The position numbers and the translations under genes were made by a program. Positions 1,151 to 11,558 of a stretch of 64,000 nt of DNA are shown here, piece after piece (positions within the stretch are counted from its first letter, which is position 1; each line of letters opens with the position of its first letter). The notes beneath the pieces were generated by a model. It searched no databases and was not told where the DNA came from. It worked only from the letters and a program-made list of their open reading frames with translations. The DNA lies in NCBI GenBank assembly GCA_017428055.1, contig JAFRRN010000035.1, forward strand, positions 1 through 64,000, given 5' to 3'. The stretch comes from Prevotella sp. GTDB taxonomy: Bacteria; Bacteroidota; Bacteroidia; Bacteroidales; Bacteroidaceae.

Positions 1151-2071
1151 TTACGCTACTATTTCTGTTTTTATATCTATGTGGAAATACATTCCCAAGA
1201 ATCTAATTATTTTGACTTTATCTTTTGTGTCCCCTATAACATTCAAGAACCATCCATCTTCAATAGGACAGTAAAATTTTTCTTTGCCAAATGGAACGTT
1301 TCTCGTAACAAGTGACATCCCTTTCATTTCTATTTTTAATTTAGAGATTTTTTCCTTTCCAATATAATTGCAAACCAAACTTAGTGCGACAGAAGATTGA
1401 ACAACCACATCAACTATAGAGTTCATAACAAGGTGTATTTTTGTTTTCTTTGCACCTGTTTTGCTGGATTCTTTTTTCTTGTCTTTATCAAATAACTTCT
1501 CAATAAGTTTCTGCCAATCATGGTCAGACATTAGAGGAAATGATTGGTTATAAAATGTATGAACAACATTTATGCAATCAGATGTTGCTAAAAGATTACT
1601 ATTTACACAATCTTTTAATAAGACTATCAAATTCGGATTTGAAATGATTGTCAATTTCCCCTCTTTTATATATGGCTTTTCATACTCTGTAATACCAAAA
1701 TTCTTATCCTTAATCTCTGTGACATTTGGAATTACATCTGCTATGAAAGTCCTAATCTGCCTTGTGTTTTCTGCTTTCAGGAAAAGACCATACTGTCTAA
1801 ATGTTTTAGGTAAAATGCGGTAGCTATCTTTTATATGATTTTGCCATTTATTGTTGAAAATGAAATCCAATTTTTCCATCATATCAGCAACAGATTCTAT
1901 CTGGCGAATTTCAATAATATCAGGAATTCCATTGAAACGATCAATGTAATTCTTGTATTTTGTCATGATGTCTTGAGCTTTTGAAGGTGTGTAACCTTGT
2001 GCTGTAAGATACTCATGCTTAAATATGTTACGCAATTTTATATCGCAGTACGCTTCCCAAATAGTCATCAT
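1151..2071 (-). CDS. Unknown protein, last gene of the type III R-M / DndD / HerA operon
   Basis: A 306-residue protein with no signal peptide or membrane segment and no motif I can assign. The N-terminal half is helical and charged; the C-terminal third (from about residue 210) is richer in beta-type sequence. Its start (MMTIWEAYCDIK) lies one base beyond the stop of the HerA-like gene, so the two are almost certainly co-translated. In comparable defence operons such a terminal gene is often an effector or a substrate-recognition subunit, but nothing in the sequence shows this. Base composition is AT-rich like the rest of the island. Confidence 0.6.
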   Translation of the reverse strand: MMTIWEAYCDIKLRNIFKHEYLTAQGYTPSKAQDIMTKYKNYIDRFNGIPDIIEIRQIESVADMMEKLDFIFNNKWQNHIKDSYRILPKTFRQYGLFLKAENTRQIRTFIADVIPNVTEIKDKNFGITEYEKPYIKEGKLTIISNPNLIVLLKDCVNSNLLATSDCINVVHTFYNQSFPLMSDHDWQKLIEKLFDKDKKKESSKTGAKKTKIHLVMNSIVDVVVQSSVALSLVCNYIGKEKISKLKIEMKGMSLVTRNVPFGKEKFYCPIEDGWFLNVIGDTKDKVKIIRFLGMYFHIDIKTEIVA

Positions 2072-2072
2072 T

Positions 2073-3674
2073 TTATATTAAATGTGTAACCTTGATTTTC
2101 TGCCAATGTTTGCCGATACCAAGGGCCATATTATTGGCATCCTTTGTAATCAGTTCGCCTTTTTGCAAACCTGCAATGGCATGTTTTATTTCAAGCAATG
2201 CGTTCCCTGATACACCAAAAAGGTCTCTCAACACATTGTCGTTCTGCTGTTGTTGTTTCATAATCAGCGGATATTGCGCATTAGCATAGAAATCGAAATG
2301 TCGGCTCTTGAAACTTTCCATGTTCTGTGTGGCAAGAATAATGCTCATACCCTTATTGCGTCCTACGGCAATGAGGTTTTGGAGTGGTTTGTTTTCAAAA
2401 CTCAACATATAGTGTGCTTCATCGATGACCGTGAAGTGGCGCAGTTCCACCCTCTCATCGTTGACAGCCTGCTTAGGCAGCTTTTCATAGATGTTGTTGA
2501 GTTTAGAAATAACGAAGTACACGATGGCTTTAGCCATGATACCGTCTTTTTCAAATCCACCAAGATTGATGATGTAGCAGTTATGAATCAAGTCAATCTG
2601 GTCTTTTTCAGCAAATATATTGTTTCTCACCAATTGGCTCAATACAGAAATCACGCTGTCCGTATCGTCTTGTTTCCGTTCTGGTAATAAGGCAATATAG
2701 TTTTCCAACATCTCTGAGAAAGTGATAGGTTTCAGCTGCTTTTCTTTATATGCGTTAATAATGGCCTCGCTTAGTCGATTATCCATATTTGCGCTGATTC
2801 GAGCAGGTGAAATGGAACTAAGAGCGGTTGCCAACGTAGTTGCATAAAGATTCACTTCATTGATGGGACGACCACTAAAATCCTTGAAAGGAGTAAATGG
2901 TAACGGTTTCTCAATCGGATTGAGAATAGCCGTTCTATCAGTATCAAACTTTTGCAACCAATCTTCATTGGCTGGGTCAGAGAACTCTCCTTTGTAGTCA
3001 AACAAAAGGAAGTTGACAGGATAATGAGTATCAGAAGAAGCACTTCTTATCTGGTTGATAAGCACAGCCAAAAGATTTGACTTGCCAGAACCAGTCGTTC
3101 CTGCAACAAGAATCTGCGTATTGGCAATGTTTCGGCTATTGATATCAAGATATGCTTCCATGCCATTGTCATATTCACCGATAAGCAAATTAAGTTCTGG
3201 AATGGCCGAAATAGATCTCCCACCGCGCAACGGCGTGTAGGTTAGCCATTCATCTATGGCTCCTTCCTTCAACAAAATATCCCTGCCCCTTAAAATTTCT
3301 CGTCCCATAACTCTGCTTACAAGATTTGCTGAAGTCCAGTCGGCATCCACATCATGGTAGCGAAGTTTCAATAAGGTTTCAAACATTGAGCCGATATCAG
3401 ACTTTGTGAAGAATGTTGTAGCGTATGGTGTGTTTGCAAGTTTTATGTTATAATCAGCAAGATCATCTATCCGTCTTGGTGACTTGTCGCTAAGACCAGC
3501 AAGTAAACAAAGTCGCAAGACCACACTAAAATTCAAAACGATTGGGCGCACATTCTCCGTATACTCAATAAGATTCAGACGTTGTTCGAGCAATGTCTTC
3601 ACGTCCATAATACGGTCGTGCATTCCTTGCACAGCCGTAACACCTTTTATTGTAAGTTGATTGATATTGTTCAT
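2073..3674 (-). CDS. HerA/FtsK-like DNA-translocating ATPase with possible DndE-like N-terminus
   Basis: A 533-residue protein. Residues about 192-199 form a clear Walker A (GTTGSGKS) and about 416-421 a Walker B (VIDEAH), the arrangement of HerA/DUF87 hexameric pumps that thread DNA for a partner nuclease. Residues about 1-135 precede the ATPase core and contain a pattern (RLCLLAGLS, then LLKLRY, then GREILRGRDILL) that resembles the small DNA-nick-binding protein DndE of phosphorothioation systems; this comparison is from memory and needs a profile search. The gene starts 5 bases after the DndD-like gene and ends one base before the next, inside one tight leftward operon. The likely role is ATP-driven DNA handling for a defence complex. 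Confidence 0.8.
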   Translation of the reverse strand: MNNINQLTIKGVTAVQGMHDRIMDVKTLLEQRLNLIEYTENVRPIVLNFSVVLRLCLLAGLSDKSPRRIDDLADYNIKLANTPYATTFFTKSDIGSMFETLLKLRYHDVDADWTSANLVSRVMGREILRGRDILLKEGAIDEWLTYTPLRGGRSISAIPELNLLIGEYDNGMEAYLDINSRNIANTQILVAGTTGSGKSNLLAVLINQIRSASSDTHYPVNFLLFDYKGEFSDPANEDWLQKFDTDRTAILNPIEKPLPFTPFKDFSGRPINEVNLYATTLATALSSISPARISANMDNRLSEAIINAYKEKQLKPITFSEMLENYIALLPERKQDDTDSVISVLSQLVRNNIFAEKDQIDLIHNCYIINLGGFEKDGIMAKAIVYFVISKLNNIYEKLPKQAVNDERVELRHFTVIDEAHYMLSFENKPLQNLIAVGRNKGMSIILATQNMESFKSRHFDFYANAQYPLIMKQQQQNDNVLRDLFGVSGNALLEIKHAIAGLQKGELITKDANNMALGIGKHWQKIKVTHLI

Positions 3675-3679
3675 AACGT

Positions 3680-5695
3680 CTAAAAATCTTGTGTGTTAAG
3701 TCCGAAATAATCTTCTGTGATGAATGTACATTGTTTCTCTTTGTCACGATGGAGCGTATATGTCTTTGCCACATGAGCCTGGATCTTGGCAAAATCATGT
3801 TCAGTCGTAATTTCCGTATCAGTACTGAGCAAGATTGTTTGATGTGCAAGGTCGGGGAAGTAACTTTCAAGAATCACTTCACGGCTTTCTTTATCGAGCA
3901 CACCCATCACGGTATCAATCATTACAGGAGGCTCATAGTCTCCAAGATTATAAAGCACTTTCAGAAGTACTTGCATCACGGTTTGTTTAGCACCAGCATT
4001 CAGTTGGCTAAGATATATCTCATTACCGTCTTTGTGGTATATCTTGAAAGAAATATCGTCAACCCCACCAGATGACAGTTCCACCCTGCCGATCACACCT
4101 TTATATACCACCAGTATTTCATTCAGTTGGTCGCGCATCATACGTTCTATGCTTGCTTTTTTCGCACGAAGTAGTTTAATGGAAAGGTCCTTAAAGAAGT
4201 CAGGCAATTTACAGAGCAAGTCATATTGCGGGTCGGGTATTTGAGGAATGTCGTAATCGTAAGTGGCAATTTTCTTACCCAAATCCCGTATTTCATCTTT
4301 CTTCTTCTCTATATCTTCTTTCAGTTCATTTATCTTTTTTGTATTATTCTCATAGAGTTCTATGATAGAATAATCACTTCCATTTAGGGCTCGCTGATAG
4401 TCTTTCTGCAATTCACGTAGTTTTGGCAAATCATGGATTTCCTGGTTCAAGCGCACTCGTTGGTCATCGAGTAACGTAAACGGATTGGCCACAGCGGCAT
4501 ATACCAAATTTTTCAATCTTTGTATGTCTTTCGGATTGAGGAATGCAAATCTATCTTCCACCTTATTCTCTCGTTCCTGATGTTGTTTCATTTCCTCTAT
4601 TAGTGAAGGAACGTCAATGACTTGTCCTGCATAATATCGCTCCTGAATAAGTTTCACGAGGCTATTTGTAAACACTTCTATCTGTTTGTCTGAAAGAAGA
4701 TTGACACGAGCGGTCGCCACGTCTTCCTTCGTATGGAGGATAACTTCAATTTCTGTGCTAAGCAGACTTGCCAACTTCGGGAATATCACCTTTGTCTCGA
4801 TGTCCTTTGATAGATTATCGAGGTTTTGCCTATATTCTTTTTCCGATTTAAGTGTGTTCTGGATAGATTGCTCTATCTTTTGCATCTTCTCCCTCGTCAC
4901 ATCGTCTGCATTGCGACCTTCTTTGAGTTGGTTGTATTGTTCTTGATGCTCATTGGCATAGTCCAAAGCCTCTGCATATTCATCGCTCAACTGCTCCACT
5001 TTCTTAGTCAGGTCTTCTTTGGTGGCGGTCAGCTTGCCATATTCCAAGCGTTGGTTCTCATTCTCCAACCGCTCCGCTTTTTTCTCTGCCAAAAGCGTTT
5101 CGGCACCTTTGCGCATACGACTATACTTATTGAAACCCATCACCGAATTGATGTTCTTCTCAATCAACTTGTTGATTTGTTCCTCTTTCAATAGTTCGCT
5201 TGTCTTCATGGCATCGAAGAGGAAATAATAACTCAATTCCTTAGGAAGATTGGCTGCAATTATCTTATTAACTATTTCTTCGTTGGTTGCCCTTTGCTGT
5301 GCCGTAGAGCCTGACCCATAAACAAATGTATTTCCGCCCATTGACAATGTGACAGACTCAAGCACGCGGTCATCAGCCAACATATAAGCACGTTTCAGCC
5401 TATACTGTTGCTCTGTATTCAAAACCATTCCAGAAAAATCCACTTGGAGAACAATATATTTATTCTTCAGACCTGATGCCAATCTTTCCCCAGCGTTGAA
5501 TAGTTCCTCAAATTGGTGTGGTGTTTTCACGTTAAGGCCATAGAGCGCATGGTAAATGGCATCAAAAAGTGTGGTCTTACCACATCCATTGCCACCGCCT
5601 ATCAATATGATGGGGCGGTCATTGGTTACCTCCAAATTTAGGTCAAGGTTCTTGTAGGTCTTGTAGTTTTCGGCATAAATTCTCTTTATCTTCAT
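3680..5695 (-). CDS. DndD-like SMC/RecN-type ATPase
   Basis: A 671-residue ABC-type ATPase. The N-terminus MKIKRIYAENYKTYKNL and the Walker A GGGNGCGKTT (residues about 33-42) are typical of DndD, the ATPase of DNA phosphorothioation gene clusters. Residues about 190-500 are a long charged coiled coil. The C-terminal head carries the ABC signature LSQLNAGAKQ and a Walker B of the DndD kind, VMIDTVMGVLD, where a Thr follows the Asp, then LLSTDTEI as the switch region. It would bind DNA and change shape on ATP hydrolysis. No DndA or DndC sulfur-transfer gene lies nearby, so phosphorothioation is unlikely here. It is packed between a 72-residue protein (4-nt gap) and the HerA-like gene (5-nt gap). 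Confidence 0.85.
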   Translation of the reverse strand: MKIKRIYAENYKTYKNLDLNLEVTNDRPIILIGGGNGCGKTTLFDAIYHALYGLNVKTPHQFEELFNAGERLASGLKNKYIVLQVDFSGMVLNTEQQYRLKRAYMLADDRVLESVTLSMGGNTFVYGSGSTAQQRATNEEIVNKIIAANLPKELSYYFLFDAMKTSELLKEEQINKLIEKNINSVMGFNKYSRMRKGAETLLAEKKAERLENENQRLEYGKLTATKEDLTKKVEQLSDEYAEALDYANEHQEQYNQLKEGRNADDVTREKMQKIEQSIQNTLKSEKEYRQNLDNLSKDIETKVIFPKLASLLSTEIEVILHTKEDVATARVNLLSDKQIEVFTNSLVKLIQERYYAGQVIDVPSLIEEMKQHQERENKVEDRFAFLNPKDIQRLKNLVYAAVANPFTLLDDQRVRLNQEIHDLPKLRELQKDYQRALNGSDYSIIELYENNTKKINELKEDIEKKKDEIRDLGKKIATYDYDIPQIPDPQYDLLCKLPDFFKDLSIKLLRAKKASIERMMRDQLNEILVVYKGVIGRVELSSGGVDDISFKIYHKDGNEIYLSQLNAGAKQTVMQVLLKVLYNLGDYEPPVMIDTVMGVLDKESREVILESYFPDLAHQTILLSTDTEITTEHDFAKIQAHVAKTYTLHRDKEKQCTFITEDYFGLNTQDF

Positions 5696-5699
5696 GGCT

Positions 5700-5918
5700 C
5701 TAAATGTTTTTAAGTGCCTTCTTTAAGATTTTGGCAAGTTTTTTATCATCTACAGTCAGAACGCCTTGGTTGTTACGCTCCTCATTGTAAGGTTTCAGAA
5801 TATACTCTTTGAGCCAATTCGCGTCGATGTCGTTTTCTTGGCATGACTGCTCAATCAAAGCCATGTCTTCTTTCCTGACACCATAATGGAGAAACACTCC
5901 GTCAATTCCCTTTGCCAT
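5700..5918 (-). CDS. Small protein associated with the DNA-modification operon
   Basis: A 72-residue acidic-basic helical protein (MAKGIDGVFLHYGVRKEDMA ...) ending LKKALKNI. It lies 16 bases after res and 4 bases before the DndD-like gene, so it is a fixed member of the operon rather than a chance ORF. I recall database families of small proteins attached to DndD-like modification systems that look like this, but cannot verify membership. A role as an adaptor or DNA-end-binding partner of the ATPase is a guess. It has no recognised catalytic motif. Confidence 0.7.
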   Translation of the reverse strand: MAKGIDGVFLHYGVRKEDMALIEQSCQENDIDANWLKEYILKPYNEERNNQGVLTVDDKKLAKILKKALKNI

Positions 5919-5934
5919 ATATCTGTTTGTTTAT

Positions 5935-8286
5935 TTATCTGTACTCGTCTGGATACCAAGCTTCCCATCCCGTCACGTCGCTGGTTGTTGTGATGGGGAA
6001 CTTAGAATAATACCAATTATCGTTTTTCTCTATGATGACTCCACCTTGCAAATGCTGTTCTTCACGCTCTGGTTCTTTCATATATACCAACAAGGCATTA
6101 TGCTTGTTGGGAGCTTCTGAATCACTCATTTCTGATTTCGTGTCAAAGAGGAACACCTGCCCGTTCTTTGTCTTTACGATGAAGTCAACGTAGAACAATG
6201 ACTTTTCACCATTCGACATCGTATAAGGTATGGAGTAATGTTGCTTGCCCTCATCGCCGTTCTTATACCACCAGTCGATATACTCCTTGTTGGCTTCCAA
6301 AAATTCAGAGAAACGACGCTCTGGTGTCGAAACGGTATTCAATTCGATGAATGGCAATAGCGCATGTTCTTCCACCTTGGGCATCACATGATGAGTACTC
6401 TCTTTGTAGAGTCGTTCAGCTGGTACCTCCCATGAGTATTGCTCGAAGGCACGTTCCTTAGCCTTACGCTGACGTTCCTGCAACTTTCGCTCATAATTAG
6501 CAAGTGCCTTGGTGATAATATCTGTAAATTTGGGCTTGTTGGCATGATAAAGAATCACCTTCTTTGCATCTGTCTCAAACAATTCAAAGAGTATTTCCAT
6601 CGCCTGCAACAAATATCCAGCTAACACATCTGTGCTATGCGCCTTCTCAAAGCTTCCGAGTAGCGAACGACAGAAGTCGATATAGATACGATGCACCTCG
6701 CCCGCACTCTTGGCAAACTCTTTACGTTCACGCTTATCAATATCGATAATGCCAACTTCGTTTTGGAACACGATATTCTCTGGCACTTCAACACCTAAAC
6801 GGAGCACGTCAAACTTAATATGCTCGCTCTGCTCCACTTGTTTCCTGTTTTGTGCAGCAATACTCTCGTCAGGCTCTGAGTCAGGAATCTCTTCATCATC
6901 AAAACTGAAACTGAATTGTTCCCATTTCACTAACCAGTTGCGACTGAAGCAGTCTATCAATTCCTTCTTGAAGTCTGGGCCCAGTCGATTACGGTCTGAA
7001 CTCTTATAAACGCTGTAATACGACTGTAAAGCGACGTTCTGCAGATCCTCTCTACGGATAGCCAGTAGCGCATCTTTGTTCAGATAATCCATATCCTCAG
7101 CCACAATCTGTATCTGGTCTTTGCTGATGTCAGTATAGACATAGCCCACATTCAGCAAGTCGTTCTTATAGAACTTCTGTTCAGGCATTCTGAGAATGCG
7201 ACCTACCGTCTGAATGGTAAACTGGTTACTCTGCAGTTTACGGAAGATGAGCAATACCGCTGCTCGTGGACAGTCCCAACCAAGCGCGATGGCCTGTTTG
7301 AACAACAACACCTCCGTCATATTGTCTGGCTCTTCCAAACCTTCCAAGTTCTCCTTTTCGCCAGAGAGCCAAATAGCCAATTTCTTATTGTCCGTCGTAA
7401 TATCCTTTATTTCTTTCAGGTATGTCTTCACCTGGGTTGCAATAGCAGAATCCTCTGCTGTCATGCTCTCTGTAGTATCATTAGGTAGCTGAATTAACAA
7501 CAGCGGATTAATGTTCGTTCCTTCCTTTCTATAAGCCTCAGCCAACAGTCTGCGCTTCTCTAAAGCACATTGAATCAGGTGGATATTCAGTTCGTTCTCA
7601 TCGTTGTATCCCTTAGTGATGTCAGGGTTCAACACCACTTGCTTCTTTATCATCTCTTCCCTGACCACCTCTTCGCGAAAAATCGTCACCTTATGGTCAG
7701 AGTTGGTCTTGGGCGTTGCCGAAATGCGTATTTCTACCTTGGGATTTATCTTTTGCAGAACTTTCGAACTCTTATCTGCCGACTTCGACCAGAACAAATG
7801 CTCCTCGTCAATCACCACGATGATAGGCAGACCTTGTTCTTCCTGAGTTCTGCGAGTAATCTCATAGAGCGAAGCATTCTGCTCTGAGTCGCGCACCATC
7901 ACGTTCTTTTCCTTATTGATGCTCTCCCAGTTCACAAACAGTATTTCGCCAGGACGTATCACGCCCTCGCTTTGGTCTATCTCGTCATACATCACAGGCT
8001 TCAGTAGGCGTGTCTCCGTAAAGTAGTTCTTCATCTTGAAATAGCTCTGCTGATGTAACTTGTTTGGGGCAATCCAGATGAAAGCCACCTGCTGGTAAAG
8101 GCTATCACCACGGCTCTGTAGTTCCTCAGTCAGATTAGCCAACATCTGCGAGGCCATCACAGTCTTACCTGAACCTGTCGGAGCCTTGAATATCAAAGTC
8201 TTTCTATGTCCCGTCAAACAAAGTAGGTCAATGGTTTTGTCTACTAACTCGCGAACATATTTTTGTTGGTACTTTATCTCTTTCAT
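5935..8286 (-). CDS. res: Type III restriction endonuclease subunit (Res)
   Basis: A 783-residue superfamily 2 helicase-nuclease. Motif I is APTGSGKT (about 35-42), motif II DEEH (about 156-159), motif III RISATPK, and motif VI QTVGRILRMP. Near residue 700 the PD-(D/E)XK-type endonuclease core reads FYVDFIV...VFLFDTKS. In type III systems two Mod and one or two Res subunits form a complex that uses ATP to slide along DNA and cuts beside unmethylated sites. It is shorter than classical EcoP15I Res (about 970 residues), a common size in Bacteroidetes. Unusually, it is separated from mod by two genes on the opposite strand, and three or four accessory genes follow it in the same direction. Confidence 0.9.
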   Translation of the reverse strand: MKEIKYQQKYVRELVDKTIDLLCLTGHRKTLIFKAPTGSGKTVMASQMLANLTEELQSRGDSLYQQVAFIWIAPNKLHQQSYFKMKNYFTETRLLKPVMYDEIDQSEGVIRPGEILFVNWESINKEKNVMVRDSEQNASLYEITRRTQEEQGLPIIVVIDEEHLFWSKSADKSSKVLQKINPKVEIRISATPKTNSDHKVTIFREEVVREEMIKKQVVLNPDITKGYNDENELNIHLIQCALEKRRLLAEAYRKEGTNINPLLLIQLPNDTTESMTAEDSAIATQVKTYLKEIKDITTDNKKLAIWLSGEKENLEGLEEPDNMTEVLLFKQAIALGWDCPRAAVLLIFRKLQSNQFTIQTVGRILRMPEQKFYKNDLLNVGYVYTDISKDQIQIVAEDMDYLNKDALLAIRREDLQNVALQSYYSVYKSSDRNRLGPDFKKELIDCFSRNWLVKWEQFSFSFDDEEIPDSEPDESIAAQNRKQVEQSEHIKFDVLRLGVEVPENIVFQNEVGIIDIDKRERKEFAKSAGEVHRIYIDFCRSLLGSFEKAHSTDVLAGYLLQAMEILFELFETDAKKVILYHANKPKFTDIITKALANYERKLQERQRKAKERAFEQYSWEVPAERLYKESTHHVMPKVEEHALLPFIELNTVSTPERRFSEFLEANKEYIDWWYKNGDEGKQHYSIPYTMSNGEKSLFYVDFIVKTKNGQVFLFDTKSEMSDSEAPNKHNALLVYMKEPEREEQHLQGGVIIEKNDNWYYSKFPITTTSDVTGWEAWYPDEYR

Positions 8287-8329
8287 ATCAATTTATCGGC
8301 GTTTTCTTTATTTATTTAGAATTAATTCT

Positions 8330-8337
8330 TAATTTTG
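8330..8337 (+). promoter_or_regulatory. -7 element of the nested two-gene unit
   Basis: TAATTTTG fits TAnnTTTG and lies 28 bp before the ATG at 8366. The -33 region is only partly matched (TTTA at 8307-8310). It gives the small plus-strand unit its own promoter, pointing away from res. Confidence 0.55.
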
Positions 8338-8365
8338 CAATCAGAAATATTAAAGAGTTATCATC

Positions 8366-8545
8366 ATGGAAGCTAAGAACACTACTTTTGAACACAGAAC
8401 TCCTGAGGAGATTAGAGCTTGGTTTAAGCGTCGCAAGGCTTGGTATCAAAAAGTAGAAGAACAGGCTCATGCTATGTACGAAGAAGAACAGCGCATGAAG
8501 CGAGAGGCCAAAGAACAGCACAAATTCGATTTCGAATTCGCATAA
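8366..8545 (+). CDS. Small charged protein nested between res and mod
   Basis: A 59-residue, strongly charged helical protein beginning MEAKNTTFEHRTPEEIRAWF and ending KFDFEFA. It has its own promoter (8330-8337) and is followed after 3 bases by a second gene, so the two form a unit transcribed against the surrounding R-M genes. The phrase TPEEIRAWFKRRKAWYQK suggests one long helix, as in small antitoxin-like or transcript-coupled regulators, but no family is recognised. The pairing with a 165-residue protein resembles a toxin-antitoxin layout. Confidence 0.65.
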   Translation: MEAKNTTFEHRTPEEIRAWFKRRKAWYQKVEEQAHAMYEEEQRMKREAKEQHKFDFEFA

Positions 8546-8548
8546 CTG

Positions 8549-9046
8549 ATGAATCGTCTTGATGTCAACTACATAAACATTTTCTCTGACTACACCGTGT
8601 GGGCAGAAGGTGATAACCTTTACTTTGTAACTGACTACGACATAAAGTATCTGGTCTGCTTCGACAAGGAAGAAACACCACGTTTTAATGCTTATTGGTT
8701 CAGTCTTGCGAATATGAATCAGAAGGACTCTCCTCGTGATGCAAAGGTTGCACAAACTGTTCTTTGCATTATTGAAGAGTTCTTCCGTACAAACCCGGAC
8801 ATAATGCTCTATATGTGTAGCACGGTAGGTGATCAACAAGCTCAAAGGGCACGCCTTTTCTCTTTTTGGTTTAACAAAGCCGGTCAACAAGAGCGCTATT
8901 ACTTCAAAACAGCAGAAGTCAAGGGAGAGATTCCAGGAACCAAAGAATATGTAGCTATTATCATTCCTCGAAATCATCCGCAGGCTGAAGAAGCTCTCGC
9001 TTATTTTGATGCGGAAACCTCTATGTTCAGTACAATGAAACCCTAA
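8549..9046 (+). CDS. DUF6169-like protein nested between res and mod
   Basis: A 165-residue soluble protein (MNRLDVNYINIFSDYTVWAE ...). The reading YFVTDYDIKYLV, then RLFSFWFNKAGQQERYYFK, with an aromatic-rich beta layout, matches what I recall of the Bacteroidetes DUF6169 family, of unknown function; the assignment is tentative. It starts 3 bases after the 59-residue gene and ends 20 bases from the end of mod, so the two converge. Its place inside the R-M operon on the other strand suggests a later insertion or a regulatory/antitoxin-type cargo pair. Confidence 0.7.
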   Translation: MNRLDVNYINIFSDYTVWAEGDNLYFVTDYDIKYLVCFDKEETPRFNAYWFSLANMNQKDSPRDAKVAQTVLCIIEEFFRTNPDIMLYMCSTVGDQQAQRARLFSFWFNKAGQQERYYFKTAEVKGEIPGTKEYVAIIIPRNHPQAEEALAYFDAETSMFSTMKP

Positions 9047-9066
9047 TCCGTCCATACAAGATACCA

Positions 9067-10890
9067 TTATACTCCCTGCCCATCAAATAGATCAGTAGGG
9101 ATTTTTGTTCCCTCTTCCTTCTCCAAAACTTCCAATAGTTTCTCCCTTCGCTTTGGCAACACTTTCTGATAGGCATCGTAGATAGCTGCTGGCAGAGCCA
9201 CCAGTTCTACTTTATCCTCCACCTCACGGAAGTTATCTGTAAAAGCATAACGGCCAGGAGAGAATACATAAATCTTCAGACGCTTGCCTGCAAAGTCGAG
9301 GTTCTTGATTTCCTCAGCAATCTCGTCTATCAACTCCTCACGACAGACTATCAGCATGTGTCGCTTGCCGTTATTGAAGTAGCGAGCCAACTGAGGCTTT
9401 AGCTTAAAGCGTCCAAAGGTTTTCTTTTCTTCATACAAATCTTCTTTGACGCACAGCAAGTCTGTGGCAGCAGCCACCAAGTCCCTCATGTTCTTCTGAG
9501 TTCTGTCACGAGAGATGTAGTCCGTCTTATAGTAGCGTAGCGTGTTTGCTTTTAGACCTTCAACTTTTACACCTTTTGGCGTGGTGTAGCCGTTAATTAC
9601 TCGTTTGTTGCGCTCGTAGGTCACTTCCTCACAGATGTTGTTCTCGTTGTTAGTCACCAAAATACATTGGCGATGTCCGCCGTCCTCTGCATTGAGTTGC
9701 ATAGTTGCATGAAGGGTCGTGCCTGAACCTGCGAAGAAGTCGAGAATAGTGGAATCTTTGCCATAAGGGAAATTCAACACATACTTTAGTAAAGACACTG
9801 GCTTCGGGTAATCAAATACGACTCTTCCATCAAATAATTCAATTAATTGACGCCCTGCATTTTCAGTTGTGTCAACACCTAACGATGTATCAATAAGATT
9901 AGGAGGAACTTCTGGAGCATAATCACTACGCTTATATGATAACACTAACTTTTTTGATAATTCAATATACAAGCCTTTTTTGATATTCTCATCAAGTGTT
10001 GTTTGTATCCAAATAAATCGGTTCTTAAACCTAACTGGAAATTTGTTTTTTCCTCCTTCAACAACCAAATCATCCAACAACTCATTAGGAAACTTGTCTG
10101 TACCATATATTCCTATTGGATAAATACCATCGTCCATTTTACAAGTAATGGAATTTGCAGCAAAAAGCAATTCTTTAAAGGTGTTTTGGGGCTTTGTAAA
10201 AGGATCGTTACTACTGCTTGTTTTCTGTAACCCTTTAAATTTCTCTGTGTTTTCTCCTTTTTGCCAGCAAAGAATATATTCTATATTTCGCTTTATCTTC
10301 TTTGACAATGCTGGAGGTGTTGCAGATTTATACCAATTCCATTGACCGACAAAATTCTTCTGGAGGAAGACTTCATCACCAATAATTCTCAGTTGAGCCA
10401 ATTCATTTTCATCAATCGAAATAAAAATAACCCCCTTATCAGAAAGAAGCCGTTTTGCAATCTTCAGTCGTTTGCTCATAAACGAGAGCCACTTGGAGTG
10501 ACGATAGCTGTCCTCTGTATCCACAAACGAATCGTTATAGACGAAGTCCTTGTTGCCTGTATTATACGGCGGATCGATATAGATAACATCAATCTTTCCT
10601 TCATGGGTATAAGAAAGGGCGGTGAGTGCTTCAAGGTTGTCACCCTCAATCAAAATATGATTAGGTGCATCGGGGGCATCGCTTGAAATAAAGCGTTCTT
10701 TCACCTCTTTAAGCACGGGCAGTTCATCGCGAAGACGCTCCTCCACATCTTCAGGTTTGTCTTCCCACACCAATCCATATTTCTTGTGCTGACGCAGGAG
10801 GTCTATAAGATTGCTACGCTCTTCATTAGTCAGACCCTCCAAGGTCTGTAACTTGCTGATAAGTTCAGCCTTATCTATATGCCTTCTCAT
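9067..10890 (-). CDS. mod: Type III DNA adenine methyltransferase (Mod)
   Basis: A 607-residue beta-class N6-adenine methyltransferase. Motif IV, DPPYNTGNKDFVYNDSF, is at about residue 105 and motif I, FFAGSGTT, follows at about 382; the IV-before-I order defines the beta class. The variable middle (about 200-330) would be the target-recognition region and has lower GC than the ends. The N-terminal segment (GDNLEALTAL...YIDPPYNTG) is typical of type III Mod. It supplies both host protection and DNA recognition for Res. No simple-sequence tract is seen, so phase variation of the kind found in some mod genes is not indicated. Confidence 0.92.
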   Translation of the reverse strand: MRRHIDKAELISKLQTLEGLTNEERSNLIDLLRQHKKYGLVWEDKPEDVEERLRDELPVLKEVKERFISSDAPDAPNHILIEGDNLEALTALSYTHEGKIDVIYIDPPYNTGNKDFVYNDSFVDTEDSYRHSKWLSFMSKRLKIAKRLLSDKGVIFISIDENELAQLRIIGDEVFLQKNFVGQWNWYKSATPPALSKKIKRNIEYILCWQKGENTEKFKGLQKTSSSNDPFTKPQNTFKELLFAANSITCKMDDGIYPIGIYGTDKFPNELLDDLVVEGGKNKFPVRFKNRFIWIQTTLDENIKKGLYIELSKKLVLSYKRSDYAPEVPPNLIDTSLGVDTTENAGRQLIELFDGRVVFDYPKPVSLLKYVLNFPYGKDSTILDFFAGSGTTLHATMQLNAEDGGHRQCILVTNNENNICEEVTYERNKRVINGYTTPKGVKVEGLKANTLRYYKTDYISRDRTQKNMRDLVAAATDLLCVKEDLYEEKKTFGRFKLKPQLARYFNNGKRHMLIVCREELIDEIAEEIKNLDFAGKRLKIYVFSPGRYAFTDNFREVEDKVELVALPAAIYDAYQKVLPKRREKLLEVLEKEEGTKIPTDLFDGQGV

Positions 10891-10952
10891 AGCCGTACAC
10901 GATTAAGGATACGACTCAGAGAGACAGATGTTTGTTTTAGATTCATCATAAA

Positions 10953-11141
10953 GCGCCAACTTTAAATCTAATTGTTATCTGATCTAAGTTATAAAACAAC
11001 AGGACACAAAAAGGGTACCCAATCCCTAATAGTCCTAAGTGTTGGGTAGTTGGCGCAAACCCTGAAAAACGAACTTTCGGAAAAGGGTACGCCGTAACGG
11101 CGCATCCCTGTCCGAGGTTGTTTTTCGTTTCATGCGCCAAC
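10953..11141. repeat. GCGCCAAC repeats with internal hairpins
   Basis: GCGCCAAC occurs at 10953-10960 and 11134-11141, and its complement GTTGGCGC at 11049-11056. Between them TACCCAA (11016-11022) pairs with TTGGGTA (11042-11048). Near-inverted copies of a GAAAAACGAA-type stretch also flank 11065-11130. The whole looks like a folded leader or a small repeat element upstream of a short broken ORF. No known family is recognised. Confidence 0.45.
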
Positions 11142-11166
11142 ATTAAACACTTAAACCTCAGTCATT

Positions 11167-11335
11167 ATGATACGACTTGATGATTCCATCAAAAATCTTT
11201 GCACCGCAGCCCGCACTCCCATCGGAGTCCTGTTTCCTGCCTACACGCGACCGTAGCCCCGTTATCGACATTTACTGCCATGCACTTGCTCAGACAGCAT
11301 CAGCCATCCTCGCAATTCTGCTTGTAAAATTATAA
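11167..11335 (+). pseudogene. Possible small frameshifted ORF
   Basis: ATG at 11167 reads MIRLDDSIKNLCTAARTPIG VLFPAYTRP, then stops at 11254-11256. One base out of frame the text continues as a plausible protein end, DRSPVIDIYCHALAQTASAI followed by LAILLVKL, stopping at 11333-11335. The 169-nt total fits one extra base near 11240. The C-terminal part could be a membrane helix. It lies just after the GCGCCAAC repeats. No family is recognised, and it could be chance. Confidence 0.3.
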
Positions 11336-11558
11336 AAACTTTCGGAAATAACTATCCTTTGGAACAAAAAACTGCAAATAATAGCCCAAAAGTATGAAAA
11401 AACGGAAAGTATGCAACGAACTATGCCTGGCTATGTCGAAGCCTGCAAAAGGCGCAGAATTCTGCAAATTACTCCTCTCAAAGGCCTCAAAAAACATGCA
11501 GAAATCGCTTTTTCTGATGCTTTTTCCCCTGTTCTTGGTGTCCTTGGCGCACACATTT

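Follow-up and report, generated by a model that had tools for sequence, protein, structure and literature searches.

A Dnd core without sulfur enzymes that appears to be joined repeatedly to a type III-like restriction-modification pair in Bacteroidia

The window considered here comprises 64,000 nucleotides of Prevotella sp. DNA and forms the first 64 kb of one contig (JAFRRN010000035.1) in a host assembly of 4.2 Mb and 106 contigs that is 93.6% complete. It harbors a minus-strand row of six genes, five of which may constitute a composite restriction system: mod and res, a type III-like restriction-modification (R-M) pair, followed by a gene for a small protein, SP, a DndD-like ATPase gene, and a gene that fuses a DndE-like domain to a HerA-class DNA pump. 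The sixth gene encodes a protein of 306 amino acids (aa). A first-pass annotation had listed these six open reading frames (ORFs), and all are present, intact, and correctly placed. The last five are as closely spaced as it described (1-16 bp), with intergenic gaps of 16, 4, 5, and 1 base pairs (bp) in order from res to the 306-aa gene. Its families for the mod-res pair are confirmed, with two plus-strand genes between them that it had overlooked; the HerA domain it named is likewise real, as part of a DndE-HerA fusion and not as a free-standing ATPase.

The mod gene (9067-10890, minus strand) encodes a 607-aa type III-like (beta-class) adenine DNA methyltransferase, which scores 291 bits against the PADLOC model MTase_III and, in a sequence search of the PDB, matches the solved type III Mod structures 6k0w, Mbo45V, and EcoP15I. 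It shows the motif order of the beta class, with DPPY at position 106, FxGxG at position 384, and a variable recognition region between them. When the Mod of the window is aligned with four relatives, just 5 positions are invariant across 187-358 and the flanks are highly conserved, a pattern that fits a changing recognition domain. The res gene (5935-8286, minus strand) encodes a 783-aa superfamily 2 (SF2) helicase in which a family search detects the ResIII helicase domain (56 bits) and no PLD/HKD family. Its motifs are Walker A, DEEH, and QTVGRILR, together with a C-terminal PD-(D/E)xK-like motif, VDF...FDTK (D...D-T-K). DTK is shared by 18 of 22 aligned sequences, and the other four are those of loci L050 (DPK) and L035 (ambiguous residues) and two Firmicutes plasmid copies (ETK). 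The PADLOC REase_III match to Res is confined to the helicase part. The adjacency of mod and res that is typical of type III systems is kept in strand and order, despite a gap of 780 bp that holds the two opposite-strand genes.

The DndD-like gene (3680-5695, minus strand) encodes a 671-aa ABC ATPase with a coiled coil. Its full-length match to TIGR03185 scores 191 bits, which is below the equivalog threshold (245.85), and in PADLOC the protein scores 212 bits as DndD and 185 bits as PbeC. It has no CxC motif, which among 27 DndD/PbeC proteins is found just in that of L039 and in Halorubrum PbeC. The gene that follows (2073-3674, minus strand, 533 aa) encodes a DndE-like N-terminus of ~165 aa and then a DNA pump of the HerA/FtsK class. 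The HerA part matches DUF87 (48.8 bits) and the HerA domain of DptH (PDB 7es4, E 7e-10), and PADLOC DndH scores 104 bits through the C-terminal part of DndH alone. The N-terminal region, taken from 18 Bacteroidia proteins, aligns with 10 plasmid DndE proteins at an hhalign E of 3.7e-6 in one single profile comparison (score 40.7, probability 87%), and the best of 100 column shuffles scores 24.8. The Pfam DndE model gives no match to the window protein at E 0.05 but scores the sister fusion in L043 at 34.2, above the model cut-off of 25. DndD has its DndE partner here in the form of a domain fused to HerA. Passages of PMC10853773 describe, for sulfur systems, one HerA/FtsK clade whose members are fused to DndE and encoded next to a DndD-related ATPase.

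Between res and the DndD-like gene lies SP (5700-5918, minus strand), whose product is a 72-aa Sp-DndD-like protein that weakly resembles part of the DndD-binding C-terminal tail of DndC. Passages of PMC12193691 (2025) report that residues 433-482 of DndC contact the head of DndD, that this binding is disrupted by changes to L458, E462, and R471, and that the second coiled coil of DndD is bound by DndE. The E. coli DndC used for mapping carries these three residues. A profile of 18 Bacteroidia SPs, that of L048 included, aligns locally with the C-terminal region of long DndC (hhalign score 29.8, E 5.7e-4); the controls reach at most 19.5 for 100 shuffles, 13.1 and 13.7 for reversed profiles, and at most 17.7 for profiles of Mod, Res, DndD, and HerA. 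The SPs of L099, L104, and L103 (E 6.4e-8) and those of L043 and L044 (E 8.7e-6) align at the same place of DndC, so that on the E. coli protein the Bacteroidia SPs cover 435-459 and the other two sets 437-484 and 439-484. On plasmids of Burkholderia, Aureimonas, and Rhizobium the gene order is short dndC, SP, dndD, DndE-FtsK, and the short DndC, aligned for two of the three, stops at E. coli residue 414, just before the tail. Since the short DndC ends where the tail would begin and a separate SP follows, SP and the DndC tail look like one element that has been split from or fused to DndC. For SPs of the Mod-Res type, a shared origin with the tail is probable.

The opposite end of SP is its most conserved part. 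In the N-terminal motif KGxDxxFxHYGxR, residues K3, D6, F9, Y12, G13, and R15, along with D18, are invariant in all 18 Bacteroidia SPs, and G4 and H11 are kept in 15. Conservation of at least 80% is reached in 8 of the 16 N-terminal columns, in 8 of the 29 middle columns, and in 2 of the 27 C-terminal ones. Among five other SPs, the motif is replaced by DLPLWAD in three (L099, L104, and L115), all beside a short DndC, and those of L103 and L116 carry neither version. We infer that the N-terminal part of SP holds the partner enzyme. With SP and the DndE domain both present, the locus suggests a whole Dnd core beside mod-res and not merely two ATPases.

Neither the sulfurtransferase DndC (TIGR03183) nor the regulator DndB (TIGR03233; optional in many Dnd systems) finds a match at E 0.001 anywhere in the host assembly. 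The gene order, in turn, is not confined to this genome. Among 20 distinct loci, 18 are readable upstream (contig ends hide that side in L041 and L042), and in 17 of these 18 mod and res stand directly before SP and DndD in the same order and on the same strand; mod-res-SP-DndD-(DndE-HerA) recurs in 16 loci besides the window. In these counts L010 and the place in genome G589, apparently one record, were counted once. DndD relatives at E <=1e-20 occur in 12 of 399 genomes of the family and 5 of 395 of the class, samples that overlap in some genomes and both count the host. Of the 15 other genomes with DndD, mod-res adjoins SP in 12 and does not in G1009 (L048), and in G618 and G724 the contig edge intervenes. 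No res-like protein was found in G618 or G724, both less complete than G1009. A scan of genome contigs with DndD, which reaches close relatives only, returned four relatives, all with mod-res-SP-DndD-HerA, and the named relatives of DndD are Prevotellaceae, Bacteroidaceae, and Bacteroidales records; other phyla were sampled solely through close-relatives scanning of this kind and through plasmids. The genes overlap or nearly touch, with gaps in 16 measured loci of 0 to 116 bp between res and SP, -4 to 21 between SP and DndD, and -4 to 28 between DndD and HerA. The mod-res gap is -4 in 9 of these loci, at most 33 bp in 12, and 414 to 1003 bp in 4 (780 in the window). DndC scores above its cut-off in one of the 15 other host genomes, G724, at a separate locus on another contig, and G602 has a weak match (4.2e-4) under the cut-off. 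The order of the cassette is kept by more than chance.

Identity patterns divide the cassette into two modules. Across 15 complete loci (L035, with a cut HerA and ambiguous residues, L051, with a cut DndD, and L048 were left out), identities correlate at 0.80 for mod-res, and at 0.93 for SP-DndD, 0.87 for SP-HerA, and 0.96 for DndD-HerA; between the modules the correlations are 0.38-0.48. The Res of the window is closer to the L037 protein (66% identity) than to the L012 protein (46%), whereas its DndD shows the opposite order (43% and 66%, respectively). Approximately unbiased (AU) tests were applied to sets taken from the grouping of the other module. Monophyly of the DndD grouping is rejected in the Res tree (p 2.6e-25), as is monophyly of the Res-near set in the DndD tree (p 2.8e-41). 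Long branches are present, but the tests show large differences in log-likelihood (150 and 520). A fully shared history being rejected, the modules appear to have met more than once and in the same order, and no other evidence for joint function is as strong as this repeated meeting. The same tests reject descent of all five genes from one ancestral operon that was kept intact. A Res search of the 399 family genomes yields 13 places at or above 999 bits, 10 of them cassette loci and 3 plain mod-res pairs, and four weaker places (L095-L098) are likewise plain. Such pairs also occur, by annotation, on Mammaliicoccus and Enterococcus plasmids. Because plain pairs of the same subfamily exist, the Dnd engine would be an add-on. 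One of the plain pairs, L092, has its mod split into two frames of 467 and 90 aa (9627-11463) beside an intact res.

Taken as a whole, the comparison looks like a Dnd core without sulfur enzymes that has been joined repeatedly to a type III-like R-M pair. The first-pass proposal of a coupling between Dnd-type ATPases and adenine methylation, in place of sulfur modification, gains support from the order in 17 of 18 loci, the re-pairing of the modules, and the lack of a dndC match. Two parts of its interpretation are not supported. The conserved order, for which it had proposed a search of many genomes, extends from mod to DndE-HerA and leaves out the 306-aa gene, which it had counted as a core part and which is not conserved at this place, and the HerA pump does not stand alone.

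Comparison with catalogued defense systems, which that annotation had proposed, sets the locus apart from each of the closest known systems. PbeABCD (CxC) systems, represented by Halorubrum locus L087, share the order of helicase-nuclease, small protein, coiled-coil ABC ATPase, and DndE, so that res occupies the position of the helicase-nuclease PbeA; they too work alongside a separate DNA-marking enzyme. They differ in that PbeA has an HKD/PLD domain where Res has a PD-(D/E)xK-like motif, in that the ATPase of the window lacks CxC and its DndE is fused to HerA, and in that the marker is a type III adenine Mod here and DndCDEA or cytosine methylases there. Plain PbeABCD is ruled out by the missing CxC and HKD motifs. 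The plasmid Dnd cores of Burkholderia, Aureimonas, and Rhizobium have SP, DndD, and a DndE-pump fusion in the same order, with DndC where mod-res stands here. Type III R-M systems of the EcoP15I kind share the beta-class Mod with its variable recognition region and an SF2 Res with a C-terminal nuclease motif, and two-gene relatives of the present pair exist; here, however, Res lacks a sequence match to EcoP15I Res, and three Dnd-core genes follow. DndFGH (DptFGH) shares the HerA domain of DptH, but the HerA of the window matches the C-terminal part of DndH only and is fused to DndE, and none of the six genes is DndF, DndG, or DndH. Remains of a lost phosphorothioation system are ruled out by the lack of dndC and dndB matches in the genome and by the recurrence of the order in many genomes.

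In the literature, the combination is partly anticipated by PMC10853773, passages of which state that DndD/CxC-DndE cores can recruit other modifications, namely cytosine methylases. Those passages describe no type III Mod-Res with DndD and a DndE-HerA fusion. No other close description is found among the literature matches listed; an earlier mention in reference 24 of PMC10853773 is possible.

The reading that we favor, with a probability of roughly 60%, is a composite restriction system in which a type III-like Mod-Res pair is joined to a Dnd core without sulfur chemistry, which would serve as an engine docked through SP. Its composition as given above is highly probable from the homologies, and a functional coupling of Mod-Res with the Dnd core is likely. 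The division of labor among the parts is put forward tentatively, at slightly less than even odds. Mod would methylate adenine on self DNA, its variable recognition domain determining the site. SP would sit on the DndD head through its DndC-tail-like part and grip Mod or Res through its own conserved N-terminal motif. DndD and the DndE domain would clamp and scan DNA while the HerA ring pumps it, the Mod-Res unit would check the methylation of the passing DNA, and Res would cut DNA that is unmethylated. Compared with Mod-Res acting alone, restriction driven by such an engine may be more processive or may depend less on how the sites are laid out.

A number of observations weigh against this reading. 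In the PDB search, Res has no sequence match to any solved structure, EcoP15I Res included. The SP of the window scores 23.6 bits against Pfam Sp-DndD (PF20306), below the cut-off of 27.2, and a genome-wide Sp-DndD search of its own genome did not pick it up; among relatives, L037 (37.1) and L050 (27.3) exceed the cut-off and L012 (16.6) does not, and the SP of plasmid locus L099 (56.5) exceeds it too. The likeness of Mod-Res-type SPs to the DndC tail is modest (probability 29.5%, 25 columns), and the alignment extends to L458, not to E462 or R471. L048 has SP-DndD-HerA without mod-res, and no res-like protein was found in genome G1009 (96% complete), in which it lies. L091, L092, and L093 are plain mod-res pairs without SP, DndD, or HerA. 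The correlations between modules, though weaker than those within them, are higher than in any of 2000 permutations, which speaks against full independence of the modules and shows that their histories are partly shared. Lastly, the pump of L099 is an FtsK_SpoIIIE protein with FtsK_alpha, a member of the FtsK clade unlike the DUF87/DptH-like HerA here, and DndE may therefore have been joined to a pump on more than one occasion. The sulfur-type and Mod-Res-type architectures may be parallel rather than one swapped cassette, and a simple swap is not claimed.

The strongest competitor, though rather unlikely, is that one operon holds two separate defenses with no docking between them: Mod-Res would restrict alone, and SP-DndD-(DndE-HerA) would form a second layer, Pbe-like or Wadjet-like, for trapping or pumping foreign DNA, perhaps at times when Mod-Res is blocked. 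Each module does occur by itself (L091, L092, and L093 on one side, L048 on the other), the histories of the two are partly separate, and a passage of PMC6459918 reports that PbeABCD acts without visible cleavage of viral DNA. Independent layers sit less easily with the repeated re-pairing in one fixed order at near-zero gaps, with the conserved N-terminal motif of Mod-Res-type SPs (8 of 16 columns at 80% or more), and with the placement of res where PbeA stands in Pbe. The same correspondence, res-SP-DndD-DndE(HerA) mirroring PbeA-PbeB-PbeC-PbeD, suggests, as the main alternative to cutting, that phage replication is blocked in a Pbe-like manner. A second alternative, which is improbable, is that the Dnd core guides methylation instead of restriction, with DndE picking the sites and Mod replacing DndC as the writer. 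It draws on the resemblance of SP to part of the DndC tail, which in sulfur systems links the writer to the DndD-DndE core (passages of PMC12193691). Mod, however, retains a variable recognition region of its own, with 5 invariant positions across 187-358 in five Mods, and plain Mod-Res pairs exist without the cassette. Defense genes tend to cluster and the slot downstream of HerA is variable, but chance neighborhood in a defense island, or hitch-hiking without joint function, is very unlikely, and pure chance clustering is rejected by an order and strand that recur in 17 of 18 loci with genes that overlap or nearly touch.

A possible, more speculative extension of the composite-system reading regards SP-DndD-(DndE-pump) as a chassis indifferent to the mark that it serves. 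SP would be its plug, the tail-like part binding DndD and the N-terminal motif picking the enzyme, with DLPLWAD selecting DndC and KGxDxxFxHYGxR selecting type III Mod-Res. If this holds, an engine that evolved with sulfur marking drives methylation-directed restriction, and Dnd and classical restriction become interchangeable modules, so that sulfur chemistry would not be needed for the study of Dnd motors. The cassette occurs in some gut and rumen bacteria, which suggests that one DNA-scanning machine can serve quite different chemical marks. The locus is a direct test case for the suggestion, made in passages of PMC10853773, that a DndD-DndE core serves non-sulfur marks: it pairs that core with an adenine methylase and a nuclease of the type III kind, in a lineage with natural versions with and without the cassette. 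SP also gains a concrete possible role, that of a DndD-docking tail split from DndC.

Relatives of the DndE-pump fusion occur in other settings. A sister system in other genomes of the same phylum (L043, 7250-13298; L044, 7688-13522) has the order of a 666-734-aa protein, then SP, DndD, and DndE-HerA. In L043 this large protein has helicase-associated domains and a sigma-70 region 4 domain. No modification enzyme was noticed near either locus, and no search was aimed at one. The plasmid loci with short DndC, SP, and DndD have a gene annotated as FtsK (L099, 6567-8108; L104, 4917-6440; L115, 5501-7027), with a DndE-like N-terminus by profile in L099 and L104, an FtsK-type pump by Pfam in L099, and a TusA gene after it in L104 and L115. 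On these plasmids DndE has perhaps acquired its pump in parallel. Against plasmids, the HerA protein of the window matched 194 records, of which the best 30 are mostly TraC, and the sister HerA of L043 found no match at E 1e-10. A scan of viral contigs with the HerA alignment gave 254 pattern matches and no relative.

The whole cassette is also carried by MT835906 (L047), a human fecal scaffold filed as 'Bacteriophage sp.', which may be bacterial DNA or a mobile element. The separate locus of G724 (L109, 8271-17871) contains dndC, dndD, and dndE and then a set that looks Pbe-type by order and by eye, which the PbeC query did not match, together with a 159-aa protein that resembles a sulfur-binding domain by eye. 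The same genome holds the DndD/HerA end of the cassette on a different contig.

The 306-aa gene (1151-2071, minus strand) occupies the variable accessory slot downstream of HerA. Its product matches no family at cut-off, and residues 233-291 are weakly similar to accessory proteins found downstream of HerA elsewhere (hhalign score 31.9, E 2.1e-4; 100 shuffles reach no more than 23.1). The genes in this slot share an N-terminal module of ~80 aa on differing C-terminal domains, often in two to three tandem copies (L009, 13627-14886; L010, 8820-10560; L011, 13631-14878; L012, 14119-14862; L033, 3745-6410; L034, 6142-7451), and it is one of these C-terminal domains that the C-terminus of the 306-aa protein weakly resembles. 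Accessory proteins of Mod-Res loci (L012, 13623-14114; L033, 3745-4983; L034, 6142-6795) match the N-terminal part of NF045808, a model of phosphorothioate-binding restriction enzymes. These matches (E 2.5e-5 to 1.4e-7) fall far short of the model cut-off, and they occur although the host genomes of L033 and L034 gave no DndC match.

Elsewhere in the host genome, another contig (L005) holds a second, distant mod beside a res-like gene (126 and 35 bits), so an additional type III-like system may be present. A window scan for sigma-70-type promoters gave 32 matches vs 25.7 by chance. A Bacteroides-type promoter pattern has 5 matches in the window (1.9 expected), of which none lies upstream of mod or res on their strand and one lies at 8236 on the plus strand, before the first of the two genes inserted between mod and res. 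This is the 59-aa ORF (8366-8545, plus strand), and the second is a DUF6169 gene (8549-9046, plus strand; Pfam DUF6169 61.5 bits). With phmmer, the latter finds no counterpart in the 16 other loci that keep the order, and it is probably an inserted passenger. The host genome contains four DUF6169 matches (the window, L110, L111, and L112). In two of the other three copies an ORF of 50 or 52 aa lies just upstream, a layout like that of toxin-antitoxin pairs, and one adjoins another methylase-family match at 94-96 kb of the contig to which the window belongs.

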